DNA of 64,000 bases. Source: Cristatella mucedo (lineage: Eukaryota > Bryozoa > Phylactolaemata > Cristatellidae). A program made the position numbers and the translations under genes. This document shows positions 954 through 58,200 of this stretch, in pieces. The stretch lies in the NCBI GenBank assembly GCA_009760855.2, contig WPIO01000014.1:3588501-3652500 (forward strand), given 5' to 3'. Position 1 is the first letter of the stretch; each line of letters opens with the position of its first letter. The notes beneath the pieces are model-generated. The model was not told where the DNA came from and searched no databases. It worked only from the letters and a program-made list of their open reading frames with translations.

Positions 954-44876
<43,923 letters not shown>

Positions 44877-47996: not shown

Positions 47997-48002
47997 TCGG
48001 AG
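47997..48002. repeat. left target site duplication of Polinton-like element (TCGGAG)
   Basis: TCGGAG here and at 56336-56341 bracket the element. Six-base duplications are the known length for Polintons/Mavericks. If the terminal T is counted as part of the element, the duplication is 5 bp (CGGAG). Confidence 0.75.
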
Positions 48003-48133
48003 AGTAGTATGTAAATGAATGGTATGGAGCCTGGGGTACATGTCGATACTCTTCATCTACCTGTCACTGCGTTCGGTAGATTCATCGATCTCCATGTGTC
48101 CCTAGTCTCCATGCCATTCATTTACATACTACT
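48003..48133. repeat. left terminal hairpin (palindromic TIR)
   Basis: AGTAGTATGTAAATGAATGG at 48003 pairs with CCATTCATTTACATACTACT ending at 48133. The stem continues with few mismatches for about 35 bp, and the loop region holds a small CTACC/GGTAG inverted repeat. The whole 131-bp block is also the inverted copy of the block at 56207-56336. Confidence 0.93.
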
Positions 48134-48180
48134 TGTGGCAGGGGGCTGTATATTATAGTAAGAACAAATTTGCAAAGCAA
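48134..48180. repeat. inner part of left TIR
   Basis: TGTGGCAGGGGGCTGTATATTATAGTAAGAAC...ATTTGCAAAG matches the complement of 56160-56206 (TGTAGCAGAGGGTTGTATATTATAGTAA...ATTTGCAAAG). The TIR therefore extends beyond the hairpin. Confidence 0.88.
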
Positions 48181-48289
48181 CGATGGCAAAGTAAGTAAAA
48201 TCGTTTTAAACAAATGTTCTTACTTAATGTAGAACCAATTGTTAAGTCACGAAATAGTTTAGAAATAACTAGAAGCCGTTTTTGATGTT

Positions 48290-50252
48290 GAGTAAAAGAG
48301 AATTTGGCCTATTATCAGAGAAAGGAATCTTTCCCTTATGAATATGTAGACTCTTTTAACAAGTTAAAGGAAAATCTCTTCCCGATAAAAAACAGTTCTT
48401 TATTTCCTTGGAAGATTATGGAATATCTGACGATGATTACTTGCGAGTGGAGAAAGTTTGGGAGTTCATGAAAAAGATAAATCCTTCAAAAGAAGATGCC
48501 TTGTTGAAATAGAGTGAAATTTATCTAACCATGAATGTTTTACTTTTAGCAGATGTTTTCCAACATTTTAGACGCTTATCAAAGAGGATTGGTGGTCTTG
48601 ATCCAGCAAATTCTTTACAGCACCTGGCCTAACATGGAGCGCCGGCTTATAGTTTTCCGGGGTACAATTAGATCTATTGACAAGTTTTGAGCATTACGAG
48701 TTTTTTTAAAGTGCTATTAGAGGTGGTATTACTTAAACATCTTGCAGACATATACAAGCAAACAATGATCGTTCTTCTAATTTTGATGAAAGTAAAGCAA
48801 AGATTTAGCTACTCTATCAAGACGCCAATTCTCTACGCTACGGCCATTTGTGAACCTTTGCCAACAGGAGACTTTCATTTCTTTAATCAAAGGCAAGTTT
48901 CGTCTTTTAGTAGGAAAAAGATCTCTTTCTTCAACAGTAGATACTGGTTTTGCTTTTGAAGTAGATATTACTTGTCCTCCTGATCTACACAAGAAGTTTT
49001 CTTATTACCCAGTTCTTCCAATAAAAAGAGCAGTTTCTACAGAGGAGTATTCCGCCTTTCAAGCAAAAACAGTTGTGCGAGAAAGAAAGGAATTGTCTGA
49101 TTATGAAAGTAAAATAGAGAAATTAGTAATAGATCTAAAACTGAGGGAACGGCGTGTCCTCCGTTACTGAAATTTGCAATTTGCCTTAGAGAAATGTTAC
49201 AATCTTTCAAAAAAGTTTTTCTCAAACGGCATGGTTGAAAGATTATATACAGAATAACAAAGGAAGAAGGCGAAGGGTAAATTTTAGAAAGAGCATTATA
49301 AGTTAAAGGTTAACGCTTTTTTTGGGAATACCATGGAGAATGTGTGTGAAAGAGTTGATATAATTCTTTGATCTGAAGTACGAAAAGTATTTCGCTATAT
49401 CTTCTAAGAGAGTACTTAGTTCTAGGTTTAAGGACAGACGGATATTCAACCAAGACCTAATTGCCATTGAAACGAACAAATCAGAAGTGAGATTAAACAA
49501 ACCTATTTACCTCGGATTCATTATTCAAGAGATATCAAAACTGATTATGCAAGATTATTATTATGGCACCTTGAAGGATTATTATGGCGACAAATTAGCA
49601 CTTGCATATACGGATACCGATTCTCTTTTAATGAAGATTGAAACAAATTATGTTTACAAGGATTTCTTAGACTATTTGTCTTACTTGGATTTATCTGGCT
49701 ATCCTCCCAATCTAGAAATATGTAAGGCAGAGGGTTTTGCACAGGCAATGGCAAAAACAGGGGCAGTATTGGCAAGTTTAAGGACGAAATAGCAGAGAAA
49801 TTTACGGTTGATTCTTCTACGAAAGATTTTATAGGAGACGATCAGGGAGATTTGGAAAAGAAATCTGTTGTATTACATGAGGGGGGTATTCTTAAGGCCA
49901 AAGCTTTATTCTGCGCAAATAGCGATAACCACGAAAGAAGGAATTAATGTTAAGTCCTGCTAAAAAGGCAAAATGAACGAAAAAGCAAATTGTAAAGAAA
50001 TATTTTACTCATGAGCATTATCTAGAATGTTTAAAAATGGGAGAGAATAGTTACTTCGACCAAACTAGATTGCAATCGTTAAATCGTGCCATTTTTACTA
50101 TTACGCAGAGAAAGAGAGCGTTATCTGCATTTGACTCTAAACACTATTGGCTTAATTGTGCTACTCATTCCTTAGCTTATGGCCATTACAGAATTGACGA
50201 AGCAATTAGAGAAGGTAACGATCCTGGTTTCTGCAGCACATGTCAAGTTTAA
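48290..50252 (+). pseudogene. protein-primed DNA polymerase B (pPolB) of Polinton type, broken and 5'-truncated
   Basis: This enzyme copies linear virus-like genomes using a protein primer. Pieces in different frames, in order: FPYEYVDSFNKLKENLFP (about 48325), LLLADVFQHFR (about 48540), LYATAICEPLPTGDFHFF (motif A region, about 48830, with a frameshift exactly there), NAFFGNTMENV (motif B-like, about 49310), YTDTDSL (catalytic motif C, 49607-49627, inside an intact frame 49487-49792), and the C-terminal SAFDSKHYWL...HSLAYGHYR (50037-50252). At least six stops or frameshifts are visible. The N-terminal exonuclease half is absent, because only about 110 bp separate the TIR from the first recognisable block. 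Confidence 0.9.
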
Positions 50253-50285
50253 TTTGAAAAAGAAACTACCCTAGTATAGGACGTA

Positions 50286-52140
50286 ATGGGCGAAATTCTT
50301 CGTGATGAGCCCGAAGGATTTTCCTCAACAGTAGTAAAAAAAGAACTCGAGACTCAACTTCCAACTGAGCAAGTACTGTCAGAAGAACTAGCAATGGAAA
50401 CTGATTCCTGCTCACATGATCCAGATTACGACCCCAACAACGAATCAGATTATGAATCAAAACAGACACGGTTTCTTCTAAGCTAATTACATTAACTGTA
50501 CCTGGAGAGCAAAACTTATCTGATGTGCTGTCAGATTCCTATCTGCTACTAGAAGGGCAGAATCGAGTTGCGGATGCGGCTGCAAACACCTATAAATCCC
50601 CCAATAGAAACCAAGCAGTAGGTCTTGTCAATAATGCTGCCGCCTGGTTGTTTAGCTCAGCAAGGGTTAGGCTTGAAGCAGAAGAGATTGAAGCTTTGAC
50701 TTTGGCAGAAGGCCCGGGTAAAGTTTCTACTCTGATAGGCCTGCTAAACTACCCAAATGACTGCGATGGGACAGAGGGTCCAGCAGCTTGGTGGAAAAAG
50801 GATGAGGTTGCTGGTACAACAGAGGATATGTACACGGGGCTCGGGAACTTTACTGGTCCTGCTGCCTCTGCTGGTGTGACGGCTTCGAATTATGGCTTAA
50901 TCTGTTGCAGAAGCCTTACTAGCACTCTTGCTGATACAGTTGGGACATTTAGTATTTCGCTGCCTCTTTCTAGGTTGTCGGTTTTCTGTGCAGATATGAA
51001 CCGAATATTATATAATATTCCATTTAGTCCAGAACTTACGCGCGTTAGTGGCACTGACTATAACGCTTTAACGACTGGACCACACACCTATTTAGGACAG
51101 CATTTAGTGGGTCCCTGTGATTCGTCCTTCATGTGCTCATGCGTGCTGACACTGTGCATGCTGCCACTAACCACATTTGCATGCTGACCCTGTTCATGTC
51201 ACCCCTAACCATGTTATTCATTTTGTTTGTTTGTTTATCAAGCATGATATTACTCACCATTCAATTGCATTCCCTTAGCAGCAAATGTAAAGCGCCTAGA
51301 GAGAAATTGAGTTCTCTGAGGGGGCTTTACCAAGTGCATTATTATTATCCTTATTATTATTATTATTAATGACTGGACCAACAGTGCTTGCTGCCAATTC
51401 TGTTAATGCGATGACAACTAGAGGAACTGTGGCTGCTAACGGAGATGGCGTTTGGACTGGTTTCAGGATTGCTATGATGAAAATGAGGCTAATTGTTCCT
51501 TGTGCTACTCCTGCTCTTAGCATTGATAGGGATCTAGCAGAAATCTCAAGTGAGCGCGGAAGAAGCTTAAGCTAAATTACAGAGTGAGACGATATGAAAA
51601 CATAACAGTAACTAGTCTTAACCAAGGCTTAAAATTCACTTAGTCACTATCCGTACAAAACACGGTTGACAAAGTTAGATGGTTCATTGTTGAGGCACAA
51701 AATGCAAACAAATACAATAACTACACACAAAATCCTGGTACTTACAATCATGGAAACATTAGGAATGCTGTTGTGTTGGCTAATCGTTCTACTCAGTACC
51801 CTGCTTTAGCTAGAAGCAGTTATCCCAAGGACGGAAGATGCTCAACCGAATGCCTTGATTTCACTCATTCCAGAAAACAATTCCTAGGTCTTAATGAAGT
51901 TACTGAGCCTTTCGGAGTTATTTATCCAGAATGGCTAACAATGTATCCAATTTATCTAGTTAACTTGCAATACAATCATTAGCCCCTCAGGAATACTACT
52001 AGACTTTTAAGTTACTATTGAGCTCAATGAGTTAATTCCTGCAGACACAAATGTTAGGTTTCATTACTTGACGATCTGTGATAACACTGCAGAGTTTACT
52101 TCTAACGGCAATGGAAGTCAGTTTACTTGCATGAAGTAAG
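50286..52140 (+). pseudogene. candidate major capsid protein region, broken, with a LINE tail inserted
   Basis: Open pieces lie at 50286-50486, 50525-51082, 51369-51575 and 51773-51982, with shifts between them. The first is acidic (PDYDPNNESDYES). Later pieces are Ala/Ser/Thr-rich and beta-prone, with LPLSRLSVFCADMNRILYNI, WTGFRIAMMKMRLIVPCATP and VNLQYN. Position after pPolB, length (about 550-600 codons) and the 'hydrophobic strand plus Pro' pattern resemble the double jelly-roll capsids of Polintons, but I cannot confirm homology. The LINE-A tail at 51083-51367 splits it. Confidence 0.5.
51083..51367 (+). mobile_element. LINE-A 3' end inserted in the element
   Basis: CCTATTTAGGACAGCATTTAG, GGTCCCTGTGATTCGTCCTT, GCTGACACTGTGCATGCTGCC, GCAAATGTAAAGCGCCTAGAG and GAGTTCTCTGAGGGGGCTTTACC with an ATT tail. 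ACGACTGGACC before and ATGACTGGACC after look like an 11-bp target duplication with one change. Confidence 0.88.
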
Positions 52141-52189
52141 CATGGATTTATGACAATATAGATACCAAATAAAATTCTTACCTGGTATA

Positions 52190-53585
52190 AGATGGAAAAG
52201 TTTGATTTTGTTTAGGGTTCGGAAGAATGGAAGAAAACAATGACTTTGAACATTGGGAGATCAGAGGCTTATTCTATTCTTGGGGCAGGAATGGTATTTT
52301 GGGATCAATGTGGTTATCACATAGATCTGATAGCTAATCAAAAGATAAAAAGATATATTGCAAACAGCTCAACAAAAATATTTCCACCAATGCTATTTCG
52401 CAAGGTGTTTGAACCAATTGCTGCTAAAAATAGTTGAACCAATTGCTGCTAAGTTCTTGAAAATGAAATTTATTGCTAAACTTGAAAACGCAAATGATTG
52501 CTTTAGTCGTGGAGTTTACAGATATTCCCTAATGGAATAATTGAAGGGCACACTTTAATAGAGACTAAATTTTTGTGGAGCAGGCAAATACAAGATGGAG
52601 TAATACCTAAACCGTATCACGCACAGTGTGTACTCGGTTTACATGCGTTAGGATGGAATGAATGCATTTATGTAATGTAATGTATCTCCGTCTGTAACTC
52701 CACAAAGTCATAAAGACCATGTGGGTGTTACGCAGGAGAGTTTTGTATAGCACACTCACAGCCTAAGCGGCTTTCGGTACGCATTCGGTAGCCAACAGAC
52801 TTCGTCTCACGTAACAAAGAGAAAGTGGGAAGCATAGCAGAGTCAGGAGAGCAGTTGAGGTAGTGAGTAGCATGGAAGTAGCAGCTCAGGATCGCTGAAA
52901 AGGATGAGCCATAGTCGGCAGCAGGAGAGTAGTTGTCGTTACGTAAGAATTGTGGAAGAGAGTTCCACATTCTAGGACCTGCAGAGCTAAAGCTTCTGTC
53001 GCCAACGGTCTTTAAGCGGAGGAATGGAATAGCTAATTTATTGTCCACACAGAACCTGAGCGCGCGAAGAGGCTGAAACTGGTGCAGCAGCTCAGCTAGG
53101 TACGACAGAGCCAAGCCGTGGTGGGCCTTGTGGGTCATCGTAAGAACTTTTATGTGTATCCGTTGCTCAACCGGCATCATCTAAGCTCTTTTAGCAAAGG
53201 AGACACGTGCTCAAACCTCTGGGAATTGAAGACTTTAATCCGAATTTGAAATAATGGTGCCAGGATTGAACGGTGAAGATGCTCCTATTGATTTTATTGT
53301 TGCAGGACATGTAAGGATTCCTACAAAAACAGAAATAAACATGCCATTAAGGTGTCCATTGCTTATGTATCTGCTTGAGAATGAAAGGTATTATGATTTT
53401 GAGTTTGACTTGATTTGCAAGTATGGTAGATTTATTAACAAGTTAATCCGGGATTTGAAATAAAGTATTGCATTAGGCGATCACTACAACAAGTTGTGGA
53501 AGAAGACGATCCTGGTAGGTTTACAAGAATTGTTCCAATAGTTAGAGAAGTGCTTGATAAATCTAAAGTTGTAATAGCAAAGTAT
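52190..53585 (+). pseudogene. possible YqaJ-type viral nuclease/recombinase plus unassigned frame, broken
   Basis: Pieces include GSEEWKKTMTLNIGRSEAYSILGAG (about 52220-52290) and EGHTLIETKFLWS then IPKPYHAQCVLGLHALGWNE (about 52545-52665). The spacing fits the YqaJ pattern (W...R/IGxS...ILG, then ExK and a Gln-containing helix). After the LINE-B insertion, 53254-53463 continues open (GLNGEDAPIDFIVAGHVRIP) and a third piece runs to 53585 (VVEEDDPGRFTRIVPIVREV). I do not recognise the last two. Stops separate the pieces. Confidence 0.4.
52671..53240 (-). mobile_element. LINE-B 3' end inserted in the element, best copy
   Basis: A 150-codon open frame on the minus strand (52728-53180) spans the RT C-terminus: PVEQRIHIKVLTMTHKAHHG, FSSAGPRMWNSLPQFLRND, CYFHATHYLNCSPDSAMLPT. 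It is followed by the LINE-B 3' UTR ending at the CATTACATTACAT tail near 52671. Its intact frame suggests a younger insertion than most copies here. Confidence 0.92.
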
Positions 53586-53589
53586 ATAC

Positions 53590-54441
53590 ATGAATCGCAA
53601 AGTAGATCTTGGTGCTTACGTTACGAAGTTCAATGGTTATTTGTTGTCTGATCTTTGTGAAAATGGGAACAGAGTTGCGAATCTTGCTGACCCAGTTAAT
53701 TCAAGTGATGCTGTTACAAAATCTTCTGCTGATGCCAATTTTTTAGTTACTGGAAACGGAGCAAATGATTTCAAAGGCGTGGCTGCTGCTTATGTGGGGC
53801 CTGGAGTAAATCCAAGAGATGCTGTTAATGTTTTCCAAATTAGTAATTATGTTACTAAATCAGGAGATACGATGAAAGGAGATTTAAAGATGAACAGCTT
53901 TGCTATTCCTTCGGCTTATTGGAAATCAGCGACTACTACTCCTCCTGTTCTGCCTGATGATTTTTGCGTTACTTATGGAGGAATGAAAAGAGATGTAGTA
54001 TTGTATGGCAGCCCTGCAACAACGACGCAAAATTTGGGAAATAATTCGATAATTAATTCTGCTAATCCTGGTGATGCGGTGACGAAAAGCTTTGCTAAAA
54101 AAATAGTAACAAAAATAACAGAAGTGATTCACGTTTCGTTTAATCCGAGGTCTATGAATTCAATTATCAAGACCTCAGTTAATTATTCGTGGACTAATAA
54201 AAGTGCTCCACCACCAATAATGCTTAGCGTGATGGTTTTTGGGAATTCTAATTGTGTTTCCCTGCGGCCCAGCTCCGATACTGCTGTAGTTTCGGGAGAA
54301 GTGAGCGCAATAAACAGTGTAAGCACAGGTACAAACTTTAAGTGTTACGCATTTTTCAATAGGCTGACTACTGACTATTACTTTGTTGATAGTATATGTA
54401 ATTTAAGAGTCAATCTCTTGGTCAGCTATGTATTCACGTGA
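53590..54441 (+). CDS. fibre-like structural protein of the Polinton-like element, intact
   Basis: A 283-aa uninterrupted frame. Residues 31-44 (NLADPVNSSDAVTK), 74-99 (NPRDAVNVFQ...YVTKSGDTMKGDL) and 155-168 (INSANPGDAVTKSF) are copies of a short motif known from trimeric phage and virus fibre shafts (xLxDPxxxxDAVxKxYV, GDTMxGDLxM). Residues about 175-283 are beta-rich, with no shaft motif, and may be a C-terminal head. By analogy it would form the attachment spike of a virion. It is odd that it stays open while the neighbouring polymerase and integrase are riddled with stops. There is no signal peptide. Start chosen at the first Met, which precedes the first repeat. Confidence 0.75.
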   Translation: MNRKVDLGAYVTKFNGYLLSDLCENGNRVANLADPVNSSDAVTKSSADANFLVTGNGANDFKGVAAAYVGPGVNPRDAVNVFQISNYVTKSGDTMKGDLKMNSFAIPSAYWKSATTTPPVLPDDFCVTYGGMKRDVVLYGSPATTTQNLGNNSIINSANPGDAVTKSFAKKIVTKITEVIHVSFNPRSMNSIIKTSVNYSWTNKSAPPPIMLSVMVFGNSNCVSLRPSSDTAVVSGEVSAINSVSTGTNFKCYAFFNRLTTDYYFVDSICNLRVNLLVSYVFT

Positions 54442-54541
54442 ATAATGGAGATTAATCAGTAATACTACTAGTTCCGTTAGCTTGTTTGCTTTTCGCTTGC
54501 CTTTGATAAGTGGAAATAGTTTTGCAATGAGTGCTATTGTT

Positions 54542-54862
54542 TCATGCTCGGCTCACCGACGATTGCGATAGACTTAGGAGCACCTTTCTACAGTGCTTCT
54601 TGGCAAGAGCATAAATCTTTGTTGGTTTTGATTTGGTCAACTTACTCCAAGCATAGTGGCAATCCGCGCAGATAAGGATCGTATTTTTTCGCAGGATGCC
54701 GGAGTCAAATTTGGTTTCTGTTAAATTGAAATCGCTCAAATCACATCGTAATTCATCCTTTAGCTTTGGCCTTTGCTTTATTTGTTTACACTTCGGATCA
54801 TTGCTTTCGAGGTATTCTTTTTCTGAAAAAGTCTGGGAACAAATTTTGCAAAATATTTCCAT
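54542..54862 (-). CDS. small Cys-rich (zinc-ribbon-like) protein of the element, function unknown
   Basis: A 106-aa intact frame on the opposite strand, between the fibre and integrase. It begins MEIFCKICSQTF (CxxC) and has a second pair, ICADCHYAW (CxxC), at about residues 69-77, with a single Cys between them, so a two-CxxC zinc-binding fold is plausible. The C-terminus is basic (KSKPTKIYALAKKHCRK). I do not recognise the family. Codon use is AT-rich like the rest of the element. Confidence 0.45.
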   Translation of the reverse strand: MEIFCKICSQTFSEKEYLESNDPKCKQIKQRPKLKDELRCDLSDFNLTETKFDSGILRKNTILICADCHYAWSKLTKSKPTKIYALAKKHCRKVLLSLSQSSVSRA

Positions 54863-54879
54863 TCTCTATAGAATTTCCT

Positions 54880-55735
54880 TCTTAACTTTAAGAGAGAGGA
54901 GAAAGGAAGATAAGTATGAGCCGGATTCAGATGTCAGAGCCAGGTATTCAAACCAAGACCAAAAGTAATTCCATATGGTTTCTTTGTCACAGAAGTGCCT
55001 AATGAACGTCATCAAGCAGATATACTGTATATGCCAACTGATTCGGGTTATAAATACGCATTAAGCGTGATTGATGTTGCTTGTAAGTATACTCAGGAGC
55101 ACTTAAAATAAAAACATCGAAACAAGTAAAACAAGCAATAATTGATATTTACTCAAAGGGGCCTTTAGAATTGCCGAAAAGGTTTACAGTAGATCCTGGT
55201 TCAGAGTTCAAAAGAGAATTCAAGAAAGAAATGAATTAACATGGAAAGCGCGTGATAGAAGCGACTAGCAAGAAAAGTGTTGCGTTAGTTGAGAGAATGA
55301 ATAGAACGATAGCAGAAAGAGCTTTTATTGCTCAGTGTGAAAAAAAATTAGAAAGTGAATTCCGGCGATCCTACTCGAAACAAGGAGTGGATTGAGAATC
55401 TACCTAAGGTTTTAGATTACCTTAATAATAACATTACAAGAACAACAGGAGAAGAACCGGTAAAAGCCATAAAAAAGAAATAGTCAAACAAAAGAAACCA
55501 GAGTACCATAGAAAAGTATGAAAACAGGAAGAGTCATTTGAACTAGGAACAACTGTTAGATATTTACTAGAACCGGGCGAAGGAGAAGATAAAAAATGAA
55601 GAAGATCTACAGATTCGATATGGAACTTGACAAAACATACGACTGTTAGAATAATGGTAATGAAAGATCAACCAGTTAGATATTTCCTATAAGATATAAA
55701 GAGAAGTTTTATCAACGAAAAATTTCAAATAATCA
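54880..55735 (+). pseudogene. retroviral-type (rve, DDE) integrase of the element, broken
   Basis: It would join the element's ends to host DNA. Core motifs are visible in pieces: HQADILYMPTDSGYKYALSV (first Asp, about 55010-55070), FTVDPGSEFK (second Asp, about 55180-55210), and VERMNRTIAERAF (Glu, about 55288-55325), with spacing near D-D-35-E. Downstream are VLDYLNNN (about 55410) and a basic C-terminal part. At least five stops or shifts disrupt it. The N-terminal zinc domain is not evident. Confidence 0.85.
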
Positions 55736-55743
55736 AACAGTAA

Positions 55744-56100
55744 TCAAACTTCTTGAACGGTGTCTATTTCACTCATGGCTCTAACAATATCATCGAATTC
55801 TTCTTCTCTGGTCATTCCATCATCAGACAAAGCATCGGTTACCTTTGAGATAAACTTTACATTTGCTTCTAGATTTGCTCTTTTGCATTTGTCTATTTCA
55901 GCTAGGACACCATCAATTAATAACAACATTATAGTTACTGCGGCGAATGCAGGAACAACGTTTGATAAGTCTGGGACTGATGGGATGTAAGTGCTGGTAA
56001 TCGTTACTCCTAGCGATATGACGATGTTTACAAATTTCAGTGCATATCTTACCTTCGTTAAACTCATTAGGCACTGCCTTCCTTTGCTATTGTATTGCAT
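55744..56100 (-). CDS. 118-aa membrane protein of the element, function unknown
   Basis: An intact minus-strand frame next to the right TIR. Residues about 18-34 (LKFVNIVISLGVTITST) and about 45-66 (SNVVPAFAAVTIMLLLIDGVLA) are two predicted membrane helices. They are followed by a charged cytosolic-type tail with ALSDDGMTREEEFDDIVRAM. The family is not recognised. Its open frame beside a ruined integrase is notable. Confidence 0.45.
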   Translation of the reverse strand: MQYNSKGRQCLMSLTKVRYALKFVNIVISLGVTITSTYIPSVPDLSNVVPAFAAVTIMLLLIDGVLAEIDKCKRANLEANVKFISKVTDALSDDGMTREEEFDDIVRAMSEIDTVQEV

Positions 56101-56159
56101 AACTTATTCAGACCTTTGGTTGACACACTTTTTGCGCAGGTCGGACATCATTGCTATAT

Positions 56160-56206
56160 TAACTTTGCAAATGTTTTGTTACTATAATATACAACCCTCT
56201 GCTACA
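56160..56206. repeat. inner part of right TIR
   Basis: Complement of the block at 48134-48180 (CTTTGCAAAT...TTACTATAATATACAACCCTCTGCTACA). Confidence 0.88.
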
Positions 56207-56336
56207 AGTAGGATGTAAATGAATGGTATGGAGACTAGGGACATGTGGAGATCGATGAATCTACCGACCGCAGTGACAGTTAGATGACGAGATAGACATG
56301 TGCTCTAGGGTCCACACCGTTCATTTACAAACTACT
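56207..56336. repeat. right terminal hairpin (palindromic TIR)
   Basis: AGTAGGATGTAAATGAATGG at 56207 pairs with CGTTCATTTACAAACTACT ending at 56336. The block matches the complement of 48003-48133 along its whole length with scattered changes, including the loop (GATGAATCTACCGA.CGCAGTGACAG). Confidence 0.92.
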
Positions 56337-56341
56337 CGGAG
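56336..56341. repeat. right target site duplication (TCGGAG)
   Basis: Direct repeat of 47997-48002, next to the right hairpin. Confidence 0.75.
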
Positions 56342-57076: not shown

Positions 57077-57184
57077 TGGGGGATTGAGCGGACGGGGATT
57101 GAGCAGAAGGGGATTGAGCAGACGGGATTGAGCAGAAGGGGATTGAGCAACGGGGATTGAGCAGAAGGGGATTGAGCAGAAGGG
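57077..57184. repeat. minisatellite, 7 units of GGGGATTGAGCAGAA type
   Basis: GGATTGAGC occurs seven times with 13-16-bp spacing (GGATTGAGCGGACG, GGATTGAGCAGAAG, GGATTGAGCAGAC and so on). Confidence 0.93.
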
Positions 57185-58200
57185 TCAATGGAAGCTAATT
57201 TTATGAGGACAGCACCTACGAGATTTCGCGATTTGCGCTGGAAGTTTAGTACACAAAGGAACACTCAGCAGAGAGAATGAGATCCGCATTTGGTAAGACG
57301 TTTGGAATTTAAAAACGTTGCTGCCTTAATGGCGCTCTAGCCATGGCGGTCGTTGCACCCGGACTCAGTAGGCAGCTCCAGAGGCCTATTCAGTATTTAG
57401 CCAAGGAGGAGGCCAACGTTGAGCAAGCCTCGGAGTACGCAAGGGAGTTACCGGGTCTTCGCCGCTCGGGGCACTCTTCACGTTGTTTCAAGGTCAGGGC
57501 CCGCTAGCTTCCTTTTGTTAAGCCTAGGGACAGCTGTTATCCTATTGGGCTTTGACAGTAAGTTATAACCTTTCAAGCCTACAGGTTGTCTCGATGAGCC
57601 GGTCTCCTTTCGCTACGTCTGCGGACGCCTCTCACCCTATCGGGCTTCGACGGCAAGTAATGAATTGTCGCCCGCGAAGATGGCGGACGACCTCCAGAAA
57701 GCGAATAATAAACATGCAACAGGACAACGATCAACCTCGAAGGGGCCGCTCACTGTGCCTTTACTCCAGCGCGGCGAAAGGAGCCAGTTGCAAGAGCTCA
57801 ACGAAGCTAGGGCAGAAACATGCCCGGAGCAAGCCCGTTCAGATACCCCCCGCGGAGGGCGAAGACCAAACGACGAAGCCGCGGTAAACTTTGCATCGGA
57901 GGTTTGATGAACCAAGTGGCCTCGGTAGAAGCTATCGCTAAGGCACATCGCTATCATTCGCACAAACGCAGCGCAAGTATCCGAGGCTCACAGCCGCGAG
58001 ACCGTTGCTGACAGCACTAGAAACTTGGAGCTATTGGCTATTAAGTCGAATACAGCTGGGTATGCAGACAATAGCGAGAACCACAGAGACCCGTGCCAAT
58101 CAAGACTCAGAATTCAGCTTGCCCACTATTGTTCGTAGCGTCTTGCATCATTTAATTGCAGCCGTTTACTGTTTGACAAGTCAGCGTCGGATAAGCACCG
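57185..58200. other. CpG-rich stretch with short overlapping ORFs, unassigned
   Basis: Frames at 57343-57507 (starts MAVVAPGLSRQLQ), 57552-57887 and 57665-57907 (contains MADDLQKANNKHATG) are open but show no domain. The minus frame 57637-57963 overlaps them. This could be an old retroelement gag or a 5' exon of an unseen gene. I cannot decide. Confidence 0.3.

Follow-up and report, generated by a model that had tools for sequence, protein, structure and literature searches.

A window of 64,000 nucleotides from the genome of the bryozoan Cristatella mucedo (contig WPIO01000014.1, positions 3,588,501 to 3,652,500 of the forward strand) contains, at positions 48003-56336, a Polinton/Maverick element that is damaged and has internal deletions, and each of its two ends is an imperfect palindrome of 130-131 bp able to fold into a hairpin. 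The same hairpin design is common to other Maverick families of this genome whose arms are unrelated in sequence. We propose, with a probability of roughly one half, that the element is a Maverick with protein-primed replication whose single-stranded ends would fold into their own duplex origin, the hairpin being maintained. The original prediction, made from the letters of the window, described a Polinton-like element that ends in hairpins and is flanked by a short target duplication, and this is supported by the folds, the flanks, and the relatives; the last base of the element is 56336 instead of the predicted 56335.

Folding of both ends as DNA was carried out. The left end (48005-48135) gave −33.4 kcal/mol against −9.7 ± 2.3 in 200 dinucleotide shuffles (z −10.4), and the right end (56206-56336) gave −24.7 kcal/mol (z −5.9), or −21.1 (z −4.9) on the opposite strand; none of the 200 shuffles matched the fold energy of either end. 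Long imperfect hairpins with inverted matches had been predicted at both ends, and this was borne out by z values from −4.9 to −10.4. Each end is an inverted copy of the other, and the likeness was seen to run about 55 bp past the hairpin, to about 48189 and 56151, where about 47 bp had been predicted, the hairpins being the outer portion of an inverted repeat that extends to about 48190. The terminal inverted repeats have (AGT)2//(ACT)2 tips, a Polinton/Maverick feature, and an exact CGGAG lies on either side of the element. The flanks had been predicted as TCGGAG; the five bases stand, and the sixth, a T found at 47997 on the left, matches only when base 56336 is taken both as the tip and as part of the duplication.

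A genome search with the 131-bp block gave 33 raw matches, which were reduced to 20 distinct places since palindromes match both strands; two of them are in the window and 18 elsewhere. By BLAST, the inner repeat flank was joined to the hairpin in 13 of these 18 places and was not found in the other five (L013, L014, L021, L024, and L026). When the right end was used as the query, the left partner of the C653 element (5803175, plus strand) and further short matches were also found. Other copies thus have the hairpin too; at three places, C481:16627, C130:54051, and C130:79694, it stands without a recognisable inner repeat, and these have common flanks and look like a duplicated region. Neither of the two observations named beforehand as contrary to the prediction, that is, nonpalindromic terminal repeats in other copies or the hairpin block standing alone as a miniature inverted-repeat transposable element (MITE), holds in general. 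The insertion of an unrelated palindromic MITE at each end of an ordinary Polinton, a reading favoured by those three places and by the unrelated foldback elements present in the window, was rejected as extremely improbable, considering that the hairpin is joined to the same inner repeat at 13 places, always in one orientation, and that different hairpins occupy the corresponding position in other families.

Two groups of places were observed apart. The hairpin ends at C130:48360-84801 and C481:16627 (L008, L013, L014, L016, L020, and L021) have recurring outer flanks and odd inner flanks, and this cluster resembles a stretch of host DNA that was duplicated, together with small derivatives. 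Two right ends situated 19 kb apart, C55:2392095 and C55:2411037 (L009 and L010), have identical hairpins, outer flanks, and inner flanks, and probably represent a local duplication or an assembly duplicate.

Covariation was calculated on an alignment of 18 hairpins, from which L010 (the duplicate of L009), L026 (partial), and L053 were excluded and in which L013, L014, and L021, without the inner flank, were included. Two-sided change was found in 17 of the 39 pairs of the named structure, against 7.8 ± 1.9 in shuffles that leave the relatedness of the copies in place; none of 500 shuffles reached 17, and when the pairing partner was slid at most 11 pairs had two-sided change. Counting G-T as a pair, 86.8% of the cells in the alignment are paired. 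The hairpin pairing has been maintained through changes on both sides.

The right ends of other Mavericks were surveyed in stretches of 2.5 kb located 4.7-7.2 kb downstream of the capsid match of 19 elements. Two of these fell outside their contigs; the other 17, together with the 6-kb regions L049 (C47) and L051 (C133), gave 19 regions. Most of the elements were taken from among the best capsid matches, so that the sampling is not random. In 17 of the 19 regions there was a self-inverse match of 80 bp or more with E ≤ 1e-6. L051 and L057 were not counted, leaving 15 (L049, L058, L059, L061-L065, and L067-L073); in L051 the match seen first is an AT repeat, and all that is left of a hairpin in the region is a decayed one of family B. 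C188 (L060) retains one half of a hairpin of family C. As a control, the same criterion detected none in 19 capsid regions (68,727 bases). The arms fall into unrelated sets, AGTAGTTATGTTTTGAACG.., AGTAGTATGTGATTTTTCC.., ..CCTATACGACATTTTT.., and AGTAGTATGTGATTTTGACTC.., besides the window-like one; just inside the hairpin, many of those from the other families have TATATTATAGTAA or a close variant, and loops like CTCGCTATCGCTCG or CTCACTTCGTTCG are present in several families. Fourteen further hairpins, chosen as palindromic-looking, folded with z from −4.9 to −13.7 (100 shuffles each).

Palindromes were located at both ends in five elements of three families: the window element, C653 (window family), C47 (family A), and C199 and C687 (family B). 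The two terminal repeats of C47 are 96.6% identical along 238 bp; the figures are 98.9% along 181 bp for C199 and 96.4% along 249 bp for C687. Duplications of 5 bp were exact in five of the six elements compared, CGGAG in the window, AGGCA in C653, AAGTG in C47, CTCCT in C199, and GCCCC in C687, and agreed in four of the five bases in C310 (CACAT/CACCT). The base before the left duplication is T in four of the five exact cases and A in C687; such a T would make a 6-bp duplication that has one T in common with the tip. For two family C elements no left end was found at the sites sought (L081 and L082), and therefore it is not proven that the hairpins of family C and of L072 are terminal.

Parvoviruses have their hairpins in both flip and flop orientation, and a symmetric resolution of hairpin transfer predicts that about half would be flipped. 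When each hairpin was written from outside to inside and compared with its family reference, a single orientation was found in 29 of 29 comparisons; L024, L054, and L055, where the inside is not fixed independently, were set aside, and the 26 usable comparisons all agree. Some of these comparisons are host duplicates (L009 and L010 have identical flanks, and the pairs L016/L020 and L018/L019 common flanks), and the set includes family C ends, which are not proven termini. With 0 of 26 flipped, a parvovirus-like flip/flop was rejected, and the parvovirus reading is therefore removed unless resolution is always asymmetric. In rolling hairpin replication the 3′ end would self-prime, a nuclease would resolve the closed end, and the hairpin would be transferred. 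The self-complementary shape of the ends could indeed self-prime, but the constant orientation, the lack of any Pfam match to an NS1-type rolling-circle initiator among the open reading frames (ORFs) scanned, which are a subset of all, and the tip, which is the protein-priming motif (AGT)2//(ACT)2 of vertebrate Mavericks (PMC8097293), make it very unlikely, and with it the parvovirus-like replication suggested in the original prediction. Here and below, the papers cited by PMC number are represented by portions of their text.

It had also been suggested that palindromic hairpin ends are typical of bidnaviruses and that an integrase-bearing element with such ends would be an unusual intermediate towards them. 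According to the portions of PMC4061559 and PMC4938981, the terminal repeats of bidnaviruses do not form hairpins and form a panhandle instead, which contradicts the first suggestion and rules out bidnavirus-like ends here; the intermediate finds no support beyond its shape.

The motif AGTAGT//ACTACT is the commonest end of vertebrate Mavericks and has been attributed to jumping-back in protein-primed replication (PMC8097293), and the tip of the window element is equal to it. In the usual scheme, a single strand anneals both of its ends and the resulting panhandle is the origin (PMC4046053). From the fold, the conservation, the position at the ends, and the single orientation of the hairpin, we infer a different use of the single strand, in which its folding, the recognition of the loop, and the priming would proceed as follows. 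Protein priming would take place at the AGTAGT tip; the 3′ end of the displaced strand would fold back, with ACTACT pairing with the AGTAGT-like inner arm; the loop of the hairpin would present a recognition motif; and a double-stranded origin would be rebuilt at each end, without the ends meeting in a panhandle. The hairpin would be a structured origin, neither transferred nor resolved in the manner of parvoviruses. A broader proposal, that a whole clade of Mavericks has hairpin telomeres in which the displaced strand rebuilds the origin and the terminal protein reads the loop, both ends not being needed, is made tentatively.

The hairpins could instead serve the integrase or the packaging, as cruciforms or as a protein-bound structure by which the ends are recognised, while replication would follow ordinary two-end panhandles. 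The location of the hairpin and of the inner TATATTATAGTAA at integrated tips, adjoining the target duplication, and the rve integrase found in a relative are in line with this; however, vertebrate Mavericks are reported to integrate with inverted repeats, no hairpin being mentioned in the portion of PMC8097293, and the conservation of the loop is not explained, as no need of an integrase for a loop is known. We regard such a role as unlikely. The palindromes could also be by-products of snap-back self-priming at the 3′ end, which would duplicate the tip invertedly, later copying of arm onto arm keeping the likeness without any function. The arms nearly repeat the tip motif (AGTAGT in the outer and ACTACT in the inner), they differ between families, and palindromes are frequent in this genome. 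An origin of this kind is nevertheless rather improbable, taking into account that the loop motif and the orientation remain stable both inside families and between several of them, and at the two ends alike, and that the length is stable within a family, whereas random snap-back would give many arm lengths.

Several observations weigh against the hairpin as a maintained, self-folding origin. Strong palindromes are not rare in this DNA: when the rest of the window (55,000 bases) was taken in 22 pieces of 2.5 kb, four of them had one; three are foldback elements and one is a simple repeat, and none resembles the Maverick hairpins. The weight therefore rests on the position at both tips, the covariation, and the further copies. 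The covariation can also be produced by copying one arm onto the other, and for one of its five measures, the further pair types, the value of 28 compared with 23.4 was reached by 6 of 500 shuffles. The ends of the C310 copy match the hairpin (86-90%) with damaged outer arms, the right one being weakly palindromic and the left one failing the palindrome criterion, and in C550 the left hairpin has been lost and replaced by other sequence (L084, about 780-1030) with the inner repeat retained. Among the 19 right-end regions, L066 showed neither hairpin nor remnant, and in L057, set aside from the count, an imperfect palindrome of about 450 bp (68%; L057:1217-1659) lies near the capsid element. 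Finally, the polymerase is recognised by motifs and by a fused endonuclease VII domain only, no polymerase family model having matched in Pfam, PHROGs, and PDB sequence searches.

The features of the window element are listed in Table 1. The element, of 8.3 kb, had been considered compact; by comparison with the C310 copy (C310:1405358-1422330, about 17 kb), the window copy is short of about 2 kb following the left repeat and of about 7 kb at 50449, although part of the latter difference may be an insertion in C310, and two stretches are extra in the window copy (51096-51356 and 52671-53232). The distance from the polymerase motif to the capsid match is about 13 kb in C47 and less than 1 kb in the window. 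On these comparisons the window element therefore reads as a deletion derivative of a relative of about 17 kb, and a compact intact element was ruled out by the C310 copy.

Table 1: Features of the Maverick element and its flanks, in positions of the window.
Feature	Position	Strand	Basis
Left target duplication CGGAG (TCGGAG with 47997)	47998..48002		Sequence
Left terminal hairpin; outer arm begins AGTAGT, inner arm finishes ACTACT	48003..48133	+	Fold z −10.4, covariation, 18 genome places outside the window
Inner stem ATCTACC...GGTAGAT with conserved loop around TCACTGCGTTCG	48055..48081	+	Alignment and covariation (helix 2)
Inner part of left terminal inverted repeat; holds TATATTATAGTAA at 48149-48161	48134..48189	+	Repeat comparison
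Decayed polymerase region in frame pieces; YTDTDSL in ORF 49364-49792	48239..50449	+	Collinear with L047:2243-4435, 77%
Broken 5′ part of double-jelly-roll major capsid gene	50456..51187	+	50-66% amino acid identity to other genome places; 60% to L028
Dispersed repeat inserted later within the capsid gene	51096..51356		85-90% to L051 and L047, inverse orientation
Later part of capsid gene, broken	51367..52188	+	74% to L048:3401-4172; ORF 51644-51982 like the C-terminal half of L028 by eye
Stretch missing from the C310 copy; minus-strand ORF 52728-53180, presumably like the tail of a long interspersed nuclear element reverse transcriptase (no Pfam match)	52671..53232		Comparison with C310
Open frame of 287 amino acids, perhaps fibre-like	53578..54441	+	Weak Phage_T7_tail match, E 0.057
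Integrase (rve) gene, broken pieces	54920..55483	+	Weak direct match, E 0.15; 54612-55916 aligns with L049, 72% DNA identity
Open frame of 119 amino acids beside the right end, in a stretch common to C310	55744..56103	-	54731-56169 at 85% to L048
Inner part of right terminal inverted repeat	56151..56206	-	Repeat comparison
Right terminal hairpin, inverted copy of the left	56207..56336	-	Fold, repeat comparison, orientation comparison
Right target duplication CGGAG	56337..56341		Sequence

The genes are better preserved in the relatives. An ORF of L049, the C47 relative collinear with the integrase region, matches rve with E 4.1e-9, and the capsid relative L028, an open frame of 515 amino acids, matches the double-jelly-roll family PF21738 with E 4.4e-14. 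The capsid family occupies at least 150 places in the 572-Mb genome, the window included (150 were scored of 54,843 first-look candidates), the others being 50-66% identical in amino acids; some copies keep open frames of up to 586 amino acids. A packaging ATPase (Pox_A32, E 1.1e-5) was detected in the relative L050 (C47) only, and in the window copy, where the family search covered some of the ORFs only, this gene was not identified. YTDTDSL, which we take to be polymerase motif C, occurs in L078 and in the window piece, and L078 also has what is presumably an exonuclease motif. In the same relative, an endonuclease VII domain is fused into the polymerase-like ORF (L078:2-3538; PF02945 E 2.4e-5, PHROG E 6e-8). 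Single-protein queries, which reach only close relatives, brought up no relative of the capsid or of the polymerase in viral contigs, and the 7,993 candidates from the protein database that were scored included no relative of the capsid.

An HNH endonuclease ORF with a weak AP2-like tail was seen in the C47 Maverick (L050:2886-3443, minus strand). Outside the Maverick, the window has unrelated foldback elements at 6382-6769, 16556-16746, and 28560-28909, and a minisatellite with a unit of about 15 bp, GGGGATTGAGCAGAA, at 57077-57199, about 740 bp beyond the right end.

By comparison with the vertebrate Mavericks described in the portion of PMC8097293, the elements studied here agree in the double-jelly-roll capsid, the packaging ATPase, and the rve integrase, found in relatives, in the AGTAGT//ACTACT tips, in the short target duplication, and in a length of about 17-22 kb when less deleted. 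They differ in the terminal palindrome of about 120-195 bp, no hairpin being described in that portion, and in the duplication, of which 5 bp are clear here (with a sixth base in four of five) against the 6 bp reported there. The nearest working example would be the telomere of Streptomyces, whose palindromes fold in the 3′ overhang and bind the protein with which priming by the terminal protein begins (PMC4513846); the same source likens them to parvovirus ends. Both have a palindrome at the tip of a linear DNA and a terminal protein, shown there and presumed here, but the Streptomyces molecules are bacterial, with several short palindromes and an internal origin, and the analogy is functional, homology not being claimed. 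Bidnaviruses have a protein-primed polymerase of polinton origin, the polymerase being recognised here by motifs only, and differ in repeats that form a panhandle and not hairpins (PMC4061559, PMC4938981). Casposons are likewise self-synthesising elements and some of their terminal repeats hold internal palindromes; unlike the present elements they are prokaryotic, use a Cas1 integrase, and in the portion of PMC4046053 their palindromes are not reported as a fixed terminal hairpin. The literature searched, which did not extend to Repbase and the founding Polinton papers, reported no Polinton ends that are hairpins or palindromes, and none are mentioned in the portions of PMC8097293, PMC12220804, PMC7805220, PMC11071308, PMC6431247, PMC6723459, and PMC12747079; the word hairpin refers to a plasmid reference in PMC11071308, to a transcript signal in PMC6723459, and to a giant virus in PMC12747079.

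The inverted terminal repeats of parvoviruses are also self-complementary ends able to fold back; unlike in them, no flip/flop was observed here, and the tip motif and the gene set are of Maverick type. Hairpin ends alone do not indicate parvovirus descent. The order AGTAGT-arm-loop-arm-ACTACT, followed by TATATTATAGTAA, is a signature for locating element ends in genomes. To our knowledge, the way in which the displaced single strand is re-copied is understood for adenoviruses and a few phages, and not for Polintons. With a group whose end structure is preserved by covariation although the sequence is exchanged, it becomes testable whether the polymerase or the terminal protein needs the fold. 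If the proposal is true, these Mavericks would have a protein-primed, hairpin-end mode of replication in eukaryotic virus-like elements, placed between adenovirus-style panhandles and parvovirus-style hairpins.

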